NCBI RefSeq assembly: GCF_003640665.1
Contig: NZ_QQXL01000004.1
Coordinates: 114,858 to 178,857 of the forward strand
Length of the DNA: 64,000 bases
Origin: Galactobacter caseinivorans
Lineage (GTDB): Bacteria; Actinomycetota; Actinomycetes; Actinomycetales; Micrococcaceae
Direction: 5' to 3'
Below, piece after piece: positions 18,725 to 25,515 of the stretch. Made by a program: the position numbers and the translations under genes. Within the stretch, counting starts at the first letter, position 1, and every line of letters starts with the position of its first letter. The notes beneath the pieces are model-generated. The model saw only the letters and a program-made list of their open reading frames with translations. It was not told the origin of the DNA and searched no databases.

Positions 18725-19345
18725 ATGATCAAGGCCGTCGTTTTTGACCTGGACGGGGTGGTGCGCCACTTCGATCCCGACCATCTCAGCGGCATCGAGG
18801 CCGCCCACCATCTGAAGGCCGGCGCCATCCTCGGTGTGGCATTTCAGCCAGCGCTGCTGGAGGCGGTGACGACGGGGCGCATCACCCGGGCAGAGTGGGT
18901 GGCACGAGTCGGCGCGGCCGTGGGTGCGCCGGCGGCCGCCGCGGCGTGGGCGGCTGAGCGCGGGGTGCTCGACGACGCTGTGCTGGCTTTGGTGGGCGAG
19001 CTTCGGAACGCGGGGGTACGGACCGCCATCCTCACCAACGGCACGGACACCATCCCGGAGGAGGCGCGGCACCTAGGGCTTCCCGAGCACTTTGAGCGGA
19101 TCTTCAACTCCGCGGAGCTGGGCGTGACCAAGCCCGACGTGCGGGCGTTTGAGCAGGTGCTGCGCGGGCTGGGACTGGACGCGACACAGGTGTTTTTCAC
19201 GGACGATTCCGCGCACAAGCTCGCCGGGGCCCGCGAAGTGGGGATGCCGGTGCATCACTTTGAGGCCAACGGCGGGCGCTCCGCCGTGGAGGGGCTGCGT
19301 GCTGCGCTCGCCGGGGCCGGCCTGCCGTTGCCGCAGCACCCATAG
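18725..19345 (+). CDS. HAD-superfamily hydrolase
   Basis: 206 residues. Motif I is VVFDLDGVVRHFD (nucleophile Asp in D-x-D), motif II ILTNGTD near residue 99, motif III lysine in ELGVTKPDVRAFEQ and motif IV FFTDDSAHKLAGARE. It is a subfamily I enzyme of the epoxide-hydrolase/haloacid-dehalogenase-like phosphatase type with a helical cap; substrate unknown. Start ATG 18725. It diverges from the LCP gene across a 187-bp gap in which I see no specific site. Confidence 0.9.
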   Translation: MIKAVVFDLDGVVRHFDPDHLSGIEAAHHLKAGAILGVAFQPALLEAVTTGRITRAEWVARVGAAVGAPAAAAAWAAERGVLDDAVLALVGELRNAGVRTAILTNGTDTIPEEARHLGLPEHFERIFNSAELGVTKPDVRAFEQVLRGLGLDATQVFFTDDSAHKLAGAREVGMPVHHFEANGGRSAVEGLRAALAGAGLPLPQHP

Positions 19346-19369
19346 CGCTACGGCAGCGCTACAGCTGCG

Positions 19370-20302
19370 CTACGGCGCCAGCCACACCCCGGTGGAGCGC
19401 TCCGCCGCCGCCTCAACCTGCGCGGGAAAATCGCGCCCGCGGGCCACGCGCGGGAGTTTGACGATCCCGCCAGGGCCGGCCGTGCCGAAGCGCTTGGAGG
19501 GCCCAAAGTAGGCGGCTTGGGGCGCCGATTCCGCCCCGGCGGCGAGCAGGATGGCCTCGACGCCCAGCTCCACGGGCATGGCTCCCGGCGCAGCGCTGTG
19601 CAGGGCCGCATTCGTGGCGCCGCCGCGCTCTTTGCCGTCATTTCCGCGCATTTGCGGCCCGGCGGTCATGAGGCCCGTGCTGGTGAAACCCGGGTGCGCG
19701 GCGGTGGAGCGCAGACCCCAGCCGTGTTCCTGCGACAGCTCGGCCAGGCGCAGCGCCAATCCCAGGTCCGCCAGCTTGGAGTTGGAGTAGGCGCGCCACG
19801 GGACGTAGCGACGCTCCGACTCGGGGTCCTGGTCGTTGAAGCGCAGCAGGTGCCCCATGAAGCTAGCTTGAGTGGCCACGCGTGGCCTGTCCGAGCGCAG
19901 CAGCGTGGGCAGCAGCCCCGCCGTCAGCAGGTACGCGCCCAGGAAATTGGTGCCCCATTGCAGCTCGTGCCCGTCCTCGGTCTCAAAGCGCGTGGGCGGC
20001 ATCATGACGCCGGCATTGTTGATGAGGGTGTCCACGGATTGCCCGTCGGCCTCGATCTGGCGGGAGAACGCCTCGATCGACGCACGCGATCCCAGGTCCA
20101 CCGCTCGAAAACTCAGCTGCGCGTCGGGTTGATCCGCGCGGAGCCGGTCCATGGTCTGCGCGGCCTTCTCGGGATTGCGGGCGGCGAGAATCACGTGCGC
20201 GCCCACCTCTGCAAAGCGCCGCGCAGCCTCCTGCCCCAGCCCAGAAGTGGGCCCGGTGATCAGGACGGTGCGGCCGGAGTGGTCGGGAAGAATCAGCGGC
20301 AT
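19370..20302 (-). CDS. Short-chain dehydrogenase/reductase (SDR)
   Basis: 310 residues, cytosolic. The cofactor loop is LITGPTSGLGQEAARRF (T-G-x3-G-x-G) near residue 14, the NNAG motif appears as LINNAGVMM near 90, and the catalytic Tyr-x3-Lys is in AYSNSKLADLGLAL near 175. AARNPEKAA after the second strand, with Arg, suggests NADP(H). The pattern RVATQASF, where the active-site Ser region stands, and the overall length match retinol-dehydrogenase-like/oxidoreductase-WWOX-type bacterial SDRs. Substrate unknown. Confidence 0.9.
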   Translation of the reverse strand: MPLILPDHSGRTVLITGPTSGLGQEAARRFAEVGAHVILAARNPEKAAQTMDRLRADQPDAQLSFRAVDLGSRASIEAFSRQIEADGQSVDTLINNAGVMMPPTRFETEDGHELQWGTNFLGAYLLTAGLLPTLLRSDRPRVATQASFMGHLLRFNDQDPESERRYVPWRAYSNSKLADLGLALRLAELSQEHGWGLRSTAAHPGFTSTGLMTAGPQMRGNDGKERGGATNAALHSAAPGAMPVELGVEAILLAAGAESAPQAAYFGPSKRFGTAGPGGIVKLPRVARGRDFPAQVEAAAERSTGVWLAP

Positions 20303-21074
20303 TCGGGGTCCTTGCGTGAGGTGCTGGGCTGGCGTTTCTTTCCTGCCCGACGGCGTGGGGTTGCCTCACGCTAACAAGGTCGCCTCGGTGTGGGGTCCCG
20401 GCCAGGCGCGTCGTCGCGAACAGCGCAGCGCAACGTGGGGCATCGCTGGCGTTAACCAACCAACTTTAGGACTACAAGGTGTGCTTGGCCCGGCCCTGCC
20501 GAACGTTGGTGAACCGTGACAGCTTGGCCAGCACACACCTCTGAACCCCAGACGTGGACGTCCACCAGCCGCGGCCCCGGAGCGCGGGCCGGCGTTGATG
20601 CTGGACCTGGAGCGTTATGTTGCCCGCACGGGCACGGTGGATCTCTTCGTCGAGTTCCTCGCGGAGTCCGTGCACGTGGCAGGAACCCAGGCTCTGGAGT
20701 CGGCCTCTCGGCTGGAGATCCTCACTCAGCAATGGCACGAGGCCGCGCCGTCCAGGGCAGGCAGCACGAACAAGCGGCTGATCGGGACCTAGCTTGAACA
20801 ACCGCTGGCGACCGCGCAGGCCGCGGCATCCCGACTGGGCTGCAGGCGATGTGCTCGACGAGGCGGAGTCCCTCGTCAGTCGGACGGGGGAGGCGCCCCA
20901 GCGCTTGCTCACCCCCAACACTCGGAGCCTTTTTGGCGTCGCGAGGGTTGCTCGCCGGCGGATGAGCCGCCACGCCCCCCTCGGACTGAGCGGGGCCGGT
21001 CCACGCTCACAAGCCTGACTCACCTGAGGGGTGGGAGTGGTGTGCGGCATCGCCGAAATTGGTACGGTTCGCAG
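20303..21074. other. Gene-poor boundary region before the MazG/DUF2075 pair
   Basis: No recognisable gene in 772 bp. A REP-like motif stands at 20343-20358. A frame at 20595-20792 (plus strand, TTG/ATG start, about 65 codons, QWHEAAPSRAGSTNKRLIGT at its end) looks protein-like but matches nothing I know. A second frame at 20794-21018 is Arg/Pro-rich and unconvincing. The region may hold remnants of a mobile element at the left edge of the island that follows. Confidence 0.4.
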
Positions 21075-21398
21075 GTGGACTCCGTTGACGACATACTCAC
21101 GCAATTGCGAGCGTTCAATCAAGAGCGCGAATGGAACCAATTTCATTCGCCAGAAAACCTCGCCAAAAGTATCTCCATCGAGGCCGGCGAGCTTCTTGAG
21201 TGCTTCCAGTGGACTGCCGACACAGATGCTCGTCGCGTGTCCGGAGAACTCGCGGATGTCCTCACCTACAGCTTCCTCTTGGCCGACGCGATGGGGGTCG
21301 ATCCGCTTCAAGTGATCCGCGAGAAGCTCGCAGTGAGTGCCGCGAAGTACCCGGTGGAGAAGGCGAAGGGGCGGAGCACAAAATATGATCGGCTCTGA
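21075..21398 (+). CDS. MazG-like nucleotide pyrophosphohydrolase
   Basis: 107 residues from GTG 21075. The all-alpha NTP pyrophosphatase signature is present: SISIEAGELLECFQW (E-x-x-E) near residue 34 and GELADVLTYSFLLAD (E-x-x-D) near 58, the four Mg-binding acidic positions. The family hydrolyses (d)NTPs to monophosphates plus pyrophosphate and includes dCTPases. The product is a stand-alone MazG core, shorter than housekeeping MazG. Its end overlaps the GIY-YIG/DUF2075 gene, implying coupled translation and joint function. Codon use is less GC-biased than in flanking genes. Confidence 0.88.
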   Translation: MDSVDDILTQLRAFNQEREWNQFHSPENLAKSISIEAGELLECFQWTADTDARRVSGELADVLTYSFLLADAMGVDPLQVIREKLAVSAAKYPVEKAKGRSTKYDRL

Positions 21399-23172
21399 TA
21401 TGAATCCGCGGCCCTTCAGGGACGATGTTGTGAGCGCGTGGGCGGCGAGCGACCAGCGGTTGCGGAACTGGCCCGTGGTTTACACGATTGATGGACGCGA
21501 CGCGATCTACGTTGGCGAAACACTCAATTTCGCCAGCCGAATGCAGCAGCATCTAACGAACCCAGAGAAGGCTCATCTGGAGAATGTTCGCGTTGTGGTC
21601 CGCGATACGTTCAATAAATCTGCTTGTTTGGATCTGGAGTCTTTCTTAATCCGCATGTTTGCCGGTGACGGAGTTTATCGTGTGCTGAATCGAAACAGCG
21701 GAGTGACTGAGTCGGAGTACTTCGACCGACCCGCCTACCAGGTCGGGTTCGAACAGATTTTTTCTGAATTGAAGTCTCAGGGTCTCTTTGAGCACACCAT
21801 TACAGAGATTCAAAACAGTGATCTATTCAAGTTGTCGCCCTTCAAGTCTCTCAATGACGACCAGGTTGAGGCCATGACTGGAATTCTGGAGGGGCTTTTC
21901 GCCGATCTGGAGCCTTCCGCTCAGGCAACGACGAGGGGTCCGATTGTTGTCCAGGGTGATCCAGGCACCGGGAAGACCATCGTCGCGATCTTTCTGATGA
22001 AGTTACTTCGCGACATTGCGGACTCCGCTGACGACGCACCCGATGCTCCCGAGCAAGGTGAAGAATCACAGTTCGCCGGGTTCTTTGACTCTCGCTATGC
22101 AGCGCTGGTGCGGAATTTTTCGATTGGCCTGGTGATCCCGCAGCAATCGCTACGCGAGTCCATCAAATCGGTGTTTGTTCGCACGCCCGGCTTGGATCCT
22201 GACATGGTATTGGACCCCTATAAGGTCGCTGAATCTGGCCGCGTCTGGGATTTGCTCATCGTCGACGAAACCCATCGGCTCAACAGGCTCTCGGCCCAGG
22301 CCTACGGCGGCATGACGGTACGATTCCGCGAGATCAATGCCAGGCTGGCGGCCGATGCAGTTGCCGGTGTGGACCCACAGCAGCTGACCCAACTTGATTG
22401 GATAGTTGCACATAGCAAACATCAGTTGTTGCTCGTAGATATCCGCCAGTCTGTTCGTCCCTCCGATGTCCCAGCCGACCTGTTGAGGGGATTGGCCGCG
22501 ACGGCAGAGCTTAGTGATCGACACTACCGACTGAAGCAACAAATGCGGGTGCGCGGCGGCGCGGATTATATCCGGCATACGCGCACGCTGCTTTCCTTTG
22601 CGAACGAGGGAGCGAGCACGCATGAAAGCCGCGATTTTCAAGATTATGATTATCGAGTTTTCGACGATCTCGGAGAGATGATCAAGGAGATTAGAGAGAA
22701 GGAGGCCGAGGTTGGGCTGTCTCGAATCGTGGCGGGGTACGGCTGGAAGTGGGTATCTCATAGCAAGGGACAGCGCCACAGGTACGATATTGAAATCGAT
22801 GGGATTCAATTGAGATGGAATTCGACGTCCAAAGACTGGATCAACTCGAAGAAAAGTAAGGATGAAGTGGGTTCGATTCACACCGTCCAAGGCTATGACC
22901 TCAATTACGCCGGAGTCATTATTGGACCTGAACTCACTATCGATCCACAGTCTGGACGGTTCAAGTTGGATCGCTCCAATTATTTTGACACCCGAGGCAA
23001 GTCAAACAACGGAATGCTTGGCATCACATTCGGCGATGATGACGTATTGGACTACGTTAAGAATATCTACGCGGTGCTGATGACGCGGGGCATGCGTGGG
23101 ACCTTCGTGTATGCGGTCGATCCTGGGGTCAGAGCGCATCTCGCGTCCTGGCAGCAGGACTCACGCAGCTGA
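21385..23172 (+). CDS. GIY-YIG nuclease fused to DUF2075 (SF1 helicase-like)
   Basis: 595 residues from ATG 21385; ATG 21400 is the alternative. The N-terminal GIY-YIG domain spans about 27-110: PVVYTI, AIYVGETLNFASRMQQHL (catalytic Arg) and LDLESFLIRMFAGD (catalytic Glu). The DUF2075 ATPase follows, with Walker A VVQGDPGTGKT near 188-198, Walker B LLIVDETHRLNR near 291-302, motif III LLLVDIRQSVRP, then YRLKQQMRVRGG, SIHTVQGYDLNYAGV near 498 and LMTRGMRGTFVYAVD as motif VI. Such COG3410 proteins often travel with MazG-like enzymes in defence islands. GC content and codon use are clearly lower than in the neighbours, indicating transfer. An anti-phage role is inference. Confidence 0.9.
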   Translation: MIGSDMNPRPFRDDVVSAWAASDQRLRNWPVVYTIDGRDAIYVGETLNFASRMQQHLTNPEKAHLENVRVVVRDTFNKSACLDLESFLIRMFAGDGVYRVLNRNSGVTESEYFDRPAYQVGFEQIFSELKSQGLFEHTITEIQNSDLFKLSPFKSLNDDQVEAMTGILEGLFADLEPSAQATTRGPIVVQGDPGTGKTIVAIFLMKLLRDIADSADDAPDAPEQGEESQFAGFFDSRYAALVRNFSIGLVIPQQSLRESIKSVFVRTPGLDPDMVLDPYKVAESGRVWDLLIVDETHRLNRLSAQAYGGMTVRFREINARLAADAVAGVDPQQLTQLDWIVAHSKHQLLLVDIRQSVRPSDVPADLLRGLAATAELSDRHYRLKQQMRVRGGADYIRHTRTLLSFANEGASTHESRDFQDYDYRVFDDLGEMIKEIREKEAEVGLSRIVAGYGWKWVSHSKGQRHRYDIEIDGIQLRWNSTSKDWINSKKSKDEVGSIHTVQGYDLNYAGVIIGPELTIDPQSGRFKLDRSNYFDTRGKSNNGMLGITFGDDDVLDYVKNIYAVLMTRGMRGTFVYAVDPGVRAHLASWQQDSRS

Positions 23173-23251
23173 AGCGCAACGTGAGTCGCACTAGAAAGTG
23201 ACCGGGTTCCGCTAGCCTGTGGATGATCATCCTCGGAAAGGGACACCGCTC

Positions 23252-23923
23252 ATGAGCAGCAACCCGTACGACCCGGCTCAGCCCGGCCAGCAGCCGCAGC
23301 AGCCTTACGGCCAGCAGCAGCCGGCGCAGCAGCAGCCTTACGGCCAGCAGCACCAGCCCGCCGTGCAGTACCTGCCGCGCTTCTTCGTCAAGCAGCGCAT
23401 CACCATGATGGTGAATCGCTACGAGATCCGCATGGCGAACCCGGATGGCAGCGAGGGCCAGATCATCGGCGTGGCCCAGCAGAAGCGCATGGCGTTTAAG
23501 GAAGAGGTCACCTTCTATGGTGACGAGGCGCGCACCAAGCCGGTCTTCTCCTTCAAGGCCCGCTCCGTCATGGATCTGAACGCGGGGTACGACATCCGCG
23601 ACGCGGCCGGCACGCCCATCGGCTACTTCCAGAAGGACTTCAAGGCCAGCCTGCTGCGCTCCTCCTTCCACCTCAGCGCCCCGGGCATCGAGGCCTACGG
23701 GCAGGAGCGCAACCACACGGTCGCGATCGTGCGCCGCTTCATCGACTTCCCTATGGCTTTTCACTTCGACTTCACGGACAAGAACTCCAACCAGGTGGTC
23801 ATGTCCAGCGAGCGCAAGGCCTCCCTGCGGGACCGCTACACCGTCAACGTCCCGGATCAGCGCCTTGACTACCGCGTTGCCGCGGCAGTCGCCGTCGCGC
23901 TGGATGCCTTGATGCAGCGCTGA
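23252..23923 (+). CDS. LURP-one/scramblase-like (tubby C-terminal fold) protein
   Basis: 223 residues from ATG 23252. The first 45 residues are low complexity and Gln/Pro/Gly/Tyr-rich, with three QPYGQQ-like repeats. The remainder matches LURP-one-related beta-barrel proteins: RFFVKQRITMMVNRYEI, then QQKRMAFKEEVTFY, VFSFKARSVMDLNAGYDI, GTPIGYFQKDFKASLL and a final DYRVAAAVAVALDAL helix, which is the membrane-like central helix of the tubby/scramblase fold. Bacterial members are uncharacterised and may sense or bind lipids. A bidirectional terminator separates it from the convergent gluconate permease. Confidence 0.8.
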   Translation: MSSNPYDPAQPGQQPQQPYGQQQPAQQQPYGQQHQPAVQYLPRFFVKQRITMMVNRYEIRMANPDGSEGQIIGVAQQKRMAFKEEVTFYGDEARTKPVFSFKARSVMDLNAGYDIRDAAGTPIGYFQKDFKASLLRSSFHLSAPGIEAYGQERNHTVAIVRRFIDFPMAFHFDFTDKNSNQVVMSSERKASLRDRYTVNVPDQRLDYRVAAAVAVALDALMQR

Positions 23924-23958
23924 CGCACCTCGCGAGGTCTCGGCAGGCACCCAACGCC

Positions 23959-24088
23959 ACCACGCGGCGTCGGGCAGGCGCAGTAAAAAGGTGCCCCGCA
24001 CAAGATATGGACCGCGGGTCCATTTCCTGTGCGGGGCACTTTTTCGCGTGACGGTCAGGCGCAGATCATCTGCCCGACGCCGCGTGGT
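23959..24088. repeat. REP-like inverted pair enclosing a terminator
   Basis: ACCACGCGGCGTCGGGCAG (23959-23977) is the exact reverse complement of CTGCCCGACGCCGCGTGGT (24070-24088). The two arms are 92 bp apart and enclose a separate strong hairpin at 23985-24044. This nested arrangement, two REP arms around a hairpin, is REPIN-like. Confidence 0.8.
23985..24044. terminator. Bidirectional terminator between convergent genes
   Basis: AAAAAGGTGCCCCGCACA pairs with TGTGCGGGGCACTTTTT (one bulge), and the stem continues inward through ATGGACC/GGTCCAT. A-tract on one side and T-tract on the other make it usable from both strands, for the LURP-one-like gene and for the gluconate permease gene. Confidence 0.85.
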
Positions 24089-24114
24089 GCAGCCACCGGC
24101 GCGGCTCACCGCGG

Positions 24115-25515
24115 CTACATCAAACTGGCGAGCCCAAACAGCGCCGCCGCCACGGCAAAGCCGATCAGCGAGATGAGCGTCTCCAGCACCGTCCACGTCT
24201 TCAGAGTCGTCTTCACGTCCATCTCGAAGAAGCGGCTCACCAGCCAGAAGCCGGAATCGTTCACGTGGGAGGCGATCACGGAACCGGCCGCCACCACCAG
24301 CGCCATAGCGGCCAGCTGCAGCGGGTTGTAGCCCGCCGTCGCCACACCCTCGGCGATCAGACCAGCCGTGGTGGTCAGCGCCACGGTCGCGGAACCCTGG
24401 GCAACGCGCAGCAGTGCCGCGATGACGAAGCCGGCCAGGAAGAGCGGCATGTTGATGCTCTCAAGGGAACCCGAGAGCGCGTCGCCAATGCCAGAGGAGC
24501 GCAGCACCCCGCCAAACATGCCGCCGGCGCCCGTGATCAGGATGACGGAGCAGACCGGGCCAAGAGCGGACTCCACCTGGTTCTGCACGTCCTGACGGGA
24601 GAGCCCACGCTTGAGGCCCAAGACCACGGACGCGACCACCACGGTGATGAGCAGCGCCACCGGAGTCTCGCCCAAGGCCACCAGCACCTGGAACCAGGAC
24701 TGCCCGGCCGTGGCCTTGTCCACCACTTCACTCTTGGCCAGCGTGCTGAGCCCGGTGTTCATGAAGATGAGCACCAGCGGCAGCAGCAACACGGACATGA
24801 CCACGCCAAAGCGCGGCGGGTTGGCCAGCTGCTTCTCGCCGGCCTCGCCCAGCAGGGCCGGGATGGGCAGCACCCACTTCTTCCCGGCGTAGCGGGCAAA
24901 GAGGTAAGCGCCGAAGTACCAGGCGGGCAGCGCAACAACCAGGCCGAGCAGCAGGACCAGGCCCACGTTGGCGCCAAGGAAGGTCGCGGCGGACACTGGT
25001 CCGGGGTGCGGGGGCACAAACACGTGCATCACGGAGAAGCCACCCGCGGCAGCGAGTCCGTAGGTCAACAGCGAGCCGTTCAAGCGCCGGGCCACGGCAA
25101 AGACGACAGGGAGCATGACCACAAGCCCGGCGTCGAAGAAGATGGGGAAGCCAAAGAGCAGGGAGGCGACGCCCAGGGCAAAGGCCGCGCGCTTCTCACC
25201 GAACGCCTTCACAAAGCGATCCGCCAGCACCTGTGCGCCGCCAGAGGTCTCCACGAGCCGGCCAAGCATGGCGCCGAGTCCCACGAGTAGCGCCACGGTG
25301 CCGAGCGTGCCGCCAAAGCCCCCCGTGAGCACCCCCACCACCTTGCCCGCGGGAATGCCTGCGGCAAAGGCGGTGATGAGGCTGACGATCACGAGCGAGA
25401 GCAGCGCGTGAATCTTCAGGTAAATGATCATGACCAGCAGCAGCGCCACGGCGCCCGCGGCGATGAGCAGCAGCGCCCAGGCGGGCATGGTTTGTGTCCA
25501 GCCTTCGATCATCAT
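24115..25515 (-). CDS. Gluconate permease, GntP family
   Basis: 466 residues, an inner-membrane proton symporter for gluconate with 12-14 hydrophobic segments. Family blocks include MIIYLKIHALLSLVIVS near the N-terminus, GFGGTLGTVALLVGLGAMLG, FGFPIFFDAGLVVMLPV, HVFVPPHPGPVSAA, LITGAGGMFGGVLRSSGIG and IASHVNDSGFWLVSRF near the C-terminus. All are strongly conserved in GntP/GntT proteins. The start overlaps the gluconokinase stop (ATGA at 25512-25515), so kinase and permease are translationally coupled. A divergent GntR-type gene presumably regulates both. Confidence 0.95.
   Translation of the reverse strand: MMIEGWTQTMPAWALLLIAAGAVALLLVMIIYLKIHALLSLVIVSLITAFAAGIPAGKVVGVLTGGFGGTLGTVALLVGLGAMLGRLVETSGGAQVLADRFVKAFGEKRAAFALGVASLLFGFPIFFDAGLVVMLPVVFAVARRLNGSLLTYGLAAAGGFSVMHVFVPPHPGPVSAATFLGANVGLVLLLGLVVALPAWYFGAYLFARYAGKKWVLPIPALLGEAGEKQLANPPRFGVVMSVLLLPLVLIFMNTGLSTLAKSEVVDKATAGQSWFQVLVALGETPVALLITVVVASVVLGLKRGLSRQDVQNQVESALGPVCSVILITGAGGMFGGVLRSSGIGDALSGSLESINMPLFLAGFVIAALLRVAQGSATVALTTTAGLIAEGVATAGYNPLQLAAMALVVAAGSVIASHVNDSGFWLVSRFFEMDVKTTLKTWTVLETLISLIGFAVAAALFGLASLM

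Follow-up and report, generated by a model that had tools for sequence, protein, structure and literature searches.

The pair of genes studied here lies on the forward strand of a 64,000-nucleotide stretch of the Galactobacter caseinivorans genome (hereafter the window; contig NZ_QQXL01000004.1, positions 114,858 to 178,857). Its first gene, mazG, is an intact open reading frame of 107 aa that runs from a GTG start at 21075 to its stop at 21398 and encodes a DCTPP1-like all-alpha nucleotide pyrophosphohydrolase, while its second, an intact frame of 595 aa (ATG at 21385, end at 23172), encodes a GIY-YIG nuclease fused to an SF1 helicase, here called the nuclease-motor. As an earlier, sequence-only reading of this DNA had reported, the two genes overlap by 14 nt (21385-21398). 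This overlap is more than chance because the exact 14 nt recur in 35 of 40 loci from the host family, the remainder overlapping by 4 or 11 nt or being separated by 8 nt, and a 4-nt overlap is typical in Bacteroidota and Pseudomonadota; translation of mazG and the helicase gene is probably coupled through it. A -10-like TANNNT box (TACGGT, 21063-21068) stands 6 nt 5' of the mazG start codon. In 35 of 39 family loci such a box lies 4-14 nt 5' of a possible mazG start, where random sites would give a summed expectation of about 0.4, a figure that rises a few-fold when all candidate starts are included. The position of the box suggests that the mazG mRNA may be leaderless.

GC content within the pair is 54.6% against 67.1% in the surrounding 21 kb. 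The sequence-only reading had proposed comparing 20.3-23.2 kb with its flanks; the low-GC block is confined to the two genes and does not take in 20.3-21.1 kb, GC being 67.8% between 20001 and 21000. Nor could anything be made of the remnants suspected in the gene-poor stretch 5' of the pair (20303-21074), whose tested open reading frames matched no Pfam family and which gave no match longer than about 65 bp against 119 related genomes. An Rfam scan of window positions 19000-25000 also returned no match. Downstream, between convergent genes, a strong inverted repeat (23986-24044; 28-nt arms, 3-nt loop, T run at its end) looks like a terminator, and a second, perfect inverted repeat of 20 nt flanks this hairpin at 23958-23977 and 24070-24089.

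Profile, fold and residue comparisons all place MazG in the DCTPP1-like/MazG-like family PF12643 (E 3e-18; 66.2 bits against a curated cut-off of 27), with the all-alpha fold and the EExxE...ExxD metal site, whose residues E36, E39, E58 and D61 do not vary across 50 aligned sequences covering several phyla. Profile searches of the PDB returned 4qgp (7e-30) and DCTPP1/RS21-C6 (3e-24), and the AlphaFold2 model (pLDDT 90.7) had as its best Foldseek match the mouse dCTPase with 5-Me-dCMP (TM 0.82), such that the protein groups with archaeal AF1178 and human and mouse DCTPP1 and an identity as the long two-domain housekeeping MazG is ruled out. With human and mouse DCTPP1 (RS21-C6, XTP3TPA) it shares about 34-36% identity along almost its full length, the same fold, and the ERxWxQFHxP, ExGEL, FQW and ELxDVL blocks, and the nearest solved complexes contain dCMP or 5-Me-dCMP. 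DCTPP1 prefers dCTP and 5-methyl-dCTP (PMC4491611), and specific 5-methyl-dCTP hydrolases include E. coli Orf135 and mammalian RS21-C6/DCTPP1 (as cited in PMC10742078). For MazG we infer a substrate of the dCTP/5-modified-dCTP class.

The nuclease-motor is an SF1 helicase of the SLFN-g3 family (PF09848, formerly DUF2075, now SLFN-g3_helicase; E 3.5e-59, 201 bits against a cut-off of 24), its helicase domain spanning residues 187-579 (21943-23121) with the motor motifs intact, and its GIY-YIG nuclease domain lying at about residues 29-110 (21469-21714). A 62-sequence alignment, again across several phyla, revealed invariant motor residues K197, D294/E295, Q355, R388 and R568 and invariant nuclease residues Y33, Y42, G44, R52, E85 and N102, which puts the tyrosines, catalytic arginine and metal-binding glutamate of a GIY-YIG nuclease in place; together with the MazG alignment this bears out the earlier statement that the catalytic motifs are intact. 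The Pfam GIY-YIG model (PF01541) gave no match to the window's protein at 1e-3 and matches its relatives at best with 24.1 bits, just above the cut-off of 22.6, and the profile match of the domain is to phage T4 endonuclease II (2wsh, E 0.006). The AlphaFold2 model (pLDDT 91.7, pTM 0.92) matched Dna2, Upf1, RecD, SLFN11 and SLFN14 in Foldseek, and no known modified-base reader domain was found in the protein.

Evaluating the host family, we found nearly complete homologues of the nuclease-motor in 42 of 298 genomes (the window's own included), distributed patchily over genera. MazG is upstream in 40 of the 41 family loci inspected (39 relatives plus the window), and one family genome has a nuclease-motor without MazG. 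No other neighbour is common to more than 7 of the 41 loci, and a housekeeping operon is ruled out with MazG as the sole conserved neighbour. Conserved synteny with housekeeping genes across the genus, which the sequence-only reading had named as the pattern that would tell against it, was likewise not seen, the pair being absent from the three other genomes of the window's genus. In all 40 family loci compared, the GC of the pair is below that of its surroundings. Across 80 host-family genomes, 39 of 40 carriers have a single mazG copy, always beside the helicase gene, and all 40 non-carriers lack it, such that this bacterial MazG, unlike DCTPP1, is co-inherited with a nuclease-helicase and has no counterpart outside the pair in that set. 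In the close pairs examined, dN/dS is 0.05-0.17 for both genes, which by this measure are under strong purifying selection, and the divergences of mazG and the nuclease-motor gene correlate (r 0.67; 0 of 1000 permutations as high). Judged from these genome comparisons, MazG and the nuclease-motor are a dedicated, co-inherited unit.

A search of named genomes, with an alignment query that held no MazG, returned 80 loci, some of them in genomes shared with the family set, and these span Actinomycetota, Bacillota, Bacteroidota, Pseudomonadota, Mycoplasmatota and candidate phyla. MazG adjoins the nuclease-motor in 71 of them, usually directly upstream (it is downstream in L151, L157, L158 and L174 and divergent in L156), although start codons set too far upstream account for a few of the mazG distances, and truncated frames for those of L172 and L176. 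The MazG linkage proposed from the single locus is thus near-perfect on both surveys. Because nine of the 80 named loci and the one family genome have no MazG, the nuclease-motor can, on gene content, persist without it. Among the MazG-less loci, L163 (9456-14389) has a cassette with Vsr, a type II restriction enzyme and a C5-methyltransferase, and L170 (6225-11584) one with an MzaE-like gene and a C5-methyltransferase. At L116 (7842-11722), a gene with a PDC-S41-helicase-like C-terminal end lies directly upstream of the GIY-YIG version, perhaps forming a tandem of two helicase genes without MazG. Tree rows group mostly by phylum, with the Actinomycetota families mixed and Bacteroidota joined with Pseudomonadota. 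A DNA search with the Marinobacter version as query found no E. coli carrier, and a phage-borne module is ruled out, as viral contigs yielded a single distant relative and phage records only a few.

To the neighbourhoods of these relatives we turn for function. In the host family, 85 nearest neighbours match 86 PADLOC models at 1e-20, including mREase_IV (4 proteins), HEC-06 (3), and DpdE, DrmD, SoFic and ZorD (2 each), whereas 80 proteins drawn from random regions of the carrier genomes match 11 models, mostly as weak general-enzyme matches such as mad3 and HamB; although overlap among the models makes them non-independent, neighbours and random regions still differ strongly. The close neighbours of relatives are therefore richer in defence genes than random regions, as had been anticipated. 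At non-actinobacterial loci the nearest neighbours match Cas9, Cas1, Type IV enzymes, SoFic, HEC-06 and C5-methyltransferases, two genes, for an AAA ATPase and an IetS-like protease, lie upstream in Blautia, and plasmid examples adjoin hsdS/hsdM, cas6/cas10 and DUF3578 genes. The Marinobacter neighbours, considered as methyltransferases, proved to be glycyl-tRNA synthetase. Judged on the loci of relatives, the pair thus has the general marks of a defence system, being patchy, mobile and near defence genes above background.

Because synteny around the window is broken within the same genus, the hotspot test was done in Nesterenkonia. There, one slot (L252-L260) 5' of a single conserved right flank holds the pair in four genomes and a remnant of it in a fifth (G211), and its other occupants are a type I methyltransferase HsdM (G263), a type IIG restriction enzyme (G067) and BrxA/BrxB of BREX (G089). 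No other observation argues as strongly for the pair acting in defence as this exchange, and the genomic case for a candidate defence system, first made from the window's letters, holds up. Taken together, the genomic contexts make it very likely that the pair is an antiviral defence unit.

Comparison with known systems revealed no PADLOC-DB 2.0.0 (2023) model matching the pair beyond partial domains (PDC-S14 at 4e-7 in the GIY-YIG region, PDC-S41 at 1.5e-4), and no description of it was found in open-access full texts, with preprints, most subscription papers and post-2023 catalogues outside that search. The pair is apparently uncatalogued as a defence system, and its novelty is provisional. 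Nhi, AbiO and Hna share its nuclease-helicase defence logic, but their sequence matches are weak and short (AbiO 0.003, Nhi 0.017 over about 50 residues), which rules out Nhi identity for the nuclease-motor, and we know of no MazG partner for any of the three. Phage SSB activates Nhi and Hna (PMC10732053). Group III Schlafens (SLFN11, SLFN14) have a motor of the same Pfam family and are among the Foldseek matches, but in the pair a GIY-YIG nuclease replaces the Schlafen RNase core and the overall TM-score is about 0.3. Phage T4 uses EndoII and an all-alpha dCTPase together, separating its own DNA from host DNA, and its EndoII (2wsh) is similar to the pair's nuclease, whereas the pair is bacterial, has a motor domain and is represented in viral contigs by that one distant relative only.

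Relatives of the pair carry two kinds of additions. A C-terminal S24 (LexA/UmuD-like) domain is present on 20 nuclease-motors, 19 from Bacteroidota or Pseudomonadota and one from Nomurabacteria (L122, L125, L127, L130, L135, L138, L141-L144, L146, L149, L150, L152-L154, L159, L164, L166 and L175), and the window's protein has none. Conserved in it are the serine of a GESMN/GDSMN motif, the lysine of YT[VI]K or VTIK, and a cleavage site of Ala-Gly or Cys-Gly type; this site is AAAG in Bacteroidota and Pseudomonadota and APCG in Nomurabacteria (L127), and the domain was perhaps gained at least twice. In this large sister clade the LexA-type self-cleaving domain would let DNA damage or ssDNA signals switch the nuclease-motor. 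Upstream of the pair no SOS box rose above the shuffled background, which rules out SOS control through a LexA box.

The second addition is a PLD-helicase-DUF3427 (SauUSI-type) gene with an adjoining MutT/NudG-like NUDIX hydrolase, found near the pair in six loci (L057:5490-8884, L090:4312-7609, L121:1815-5123, L122:6232-9526, L131:1-2578 and L158:15041-18373). SauUSI-type DUF3427 enzymes cut m5C/hm5C DNA (PMC3874153). These Type IV enzymes resemble the GIY-YIG protein in being a single-chain nuclease plus motor found in defence loci, and differ in their PLD nuclease fold and motor family, the GIY-YIG protein having no DUF3427 reader. Orf135 of E. coli is itself a NUDIX enzyme. The NUDIX hydrolase that the six SauUSI-type genes have of their own parallels the MazG arrangement, and two unrelated pyrophosphohydrolases, each beside a nuclease-motor, suggest by analogy a shared logic, such that SauUSI-type enzyme plus NUDIX is a possible parallel module of pyrophosphohydrolase and nuclease-motor.

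With relatives sitting in defence neighbourhoods and MazG probably co-translated with the nuclease-motor, we lean towards reading the pair as a mobile two-gene anti-phage module of restriction type. The nuclease-motor would recognise and degrade invading DNA, and MazG would edit the cytosine nucleotide pool by hydrolysing 5-modified dCTP, possibly also dCTP itself, which would help self/non-self discrimination. MazG might do so either by keeping a modified cytosine that the nuclease attacks out of host DNA, or by depriving an infecting phage of the modified precursor with which it would mask its DNA. As an indirect test, C5-methyltransferases were counted in 40 carriers and 40 non-carriers and occur in 14 and 12 of them, respectively, which speaks against simple m5C-dependent restriction as a general rule; they adjoin three relatives (L163, L165 and L170), and the window's genome has a C5 DNA methyltransferase of its own (G000:C16:154493-155605, a 415-aa open frame). 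Because carriers do not avoid these enzymes, the modification read, if any, would not be m5C in every context. A broader version, which we offer only tentatively and consider rather improbable as a whole, is a new immunity class: a pyrophosphohydrolase would edit the nucleotide pool, and its partner nuclease-motor would distinguish self from foreign DNA by a precursor-borne cytosine modification. Such a class would have evolved more than once (MazG with the GIY-YIG/SLFN helicase, NUDIX with the SauUSI-type enzyme) and in some phyla would be switched by LexA-type self-cleavage on DNA damage.

Such pool editing would suit the predicted substrate class no less well than would general depletion, the basis of an abortive infection reading that we regard as unlikely, in which the nuclease-motor would sense infection and unleash MazG, draining dCTP and stopping replication of phage and host alike. 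Draining nucleotides is well established as a means of defence. In favour of this reading, enzymes of the DCTPP1 class also take unmodified dCTP as substrate (PMC4491611), and in the host family MazG is confined to the pair and is no general housekeeping enzyme; however, MazG is probably made and active constitutively, since it is small, is encoded first with its own conserved promoter-like box and has no visible regulatory domain, and some nuclease-motors persist without it. Still harder to credit is a role in DNA repair and pool sanitation, whereby MazG would remove damaged dNTPs and the UvrC-like GIY-YIG nuclease plus helicase would excise them from DNA. UvrC also uses a GIY-YIG nuclease, and the LexA/UmuD-like domain of relatives and the Vsr gene beside one MazG-less relative would agree with this, but the patchy distribution, low GC and strong defence neighbourhood argue against it, as do the slot where restriction or BREX genes take the pair's place and the lack of an SOS box upstream. 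A toxin-antitoxin type, with MazG as an antidote holding or countering a self-toxic nuclease-motor, is the least probable reading, for although the antidote-first order with tight coupling and the exclusive co-occurrence would suit it, MazG is kept as a complete enzyme with invariant catalytic residues, unlike a binding-only antitoxin, and intact MazG-less loci exist.

As a candidate restriction-type module, the pair extends the list of systems proposed for bacterial immunity by a widespread, apparently uncatalogued two-gene member, in which a nuclease-bearing helicase of Schlafen type is joined by a relative of human DCTPP1. The idea of a nucleotide hydrolase acting with a nuclease is now testable, since the unit is defined, substrates to try are named, and NUDIX plus the SauUSI-type enzyme offers a pair for comparison; the LexA-like domain of relatives gives a direct route to ask whether DNA damage or infection switches the effector. 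Finally, some gut Clostridia have two more genes 3' of the pair at repeated spacing (L121:7248-8938, L131:4712-6399, L157:11895-13310 and L158:11887-13582); those of L158 encode an HNH_4 nuclease and a small SAM methyltransferase and hint at a larger cluster around the pair in these bacteria.
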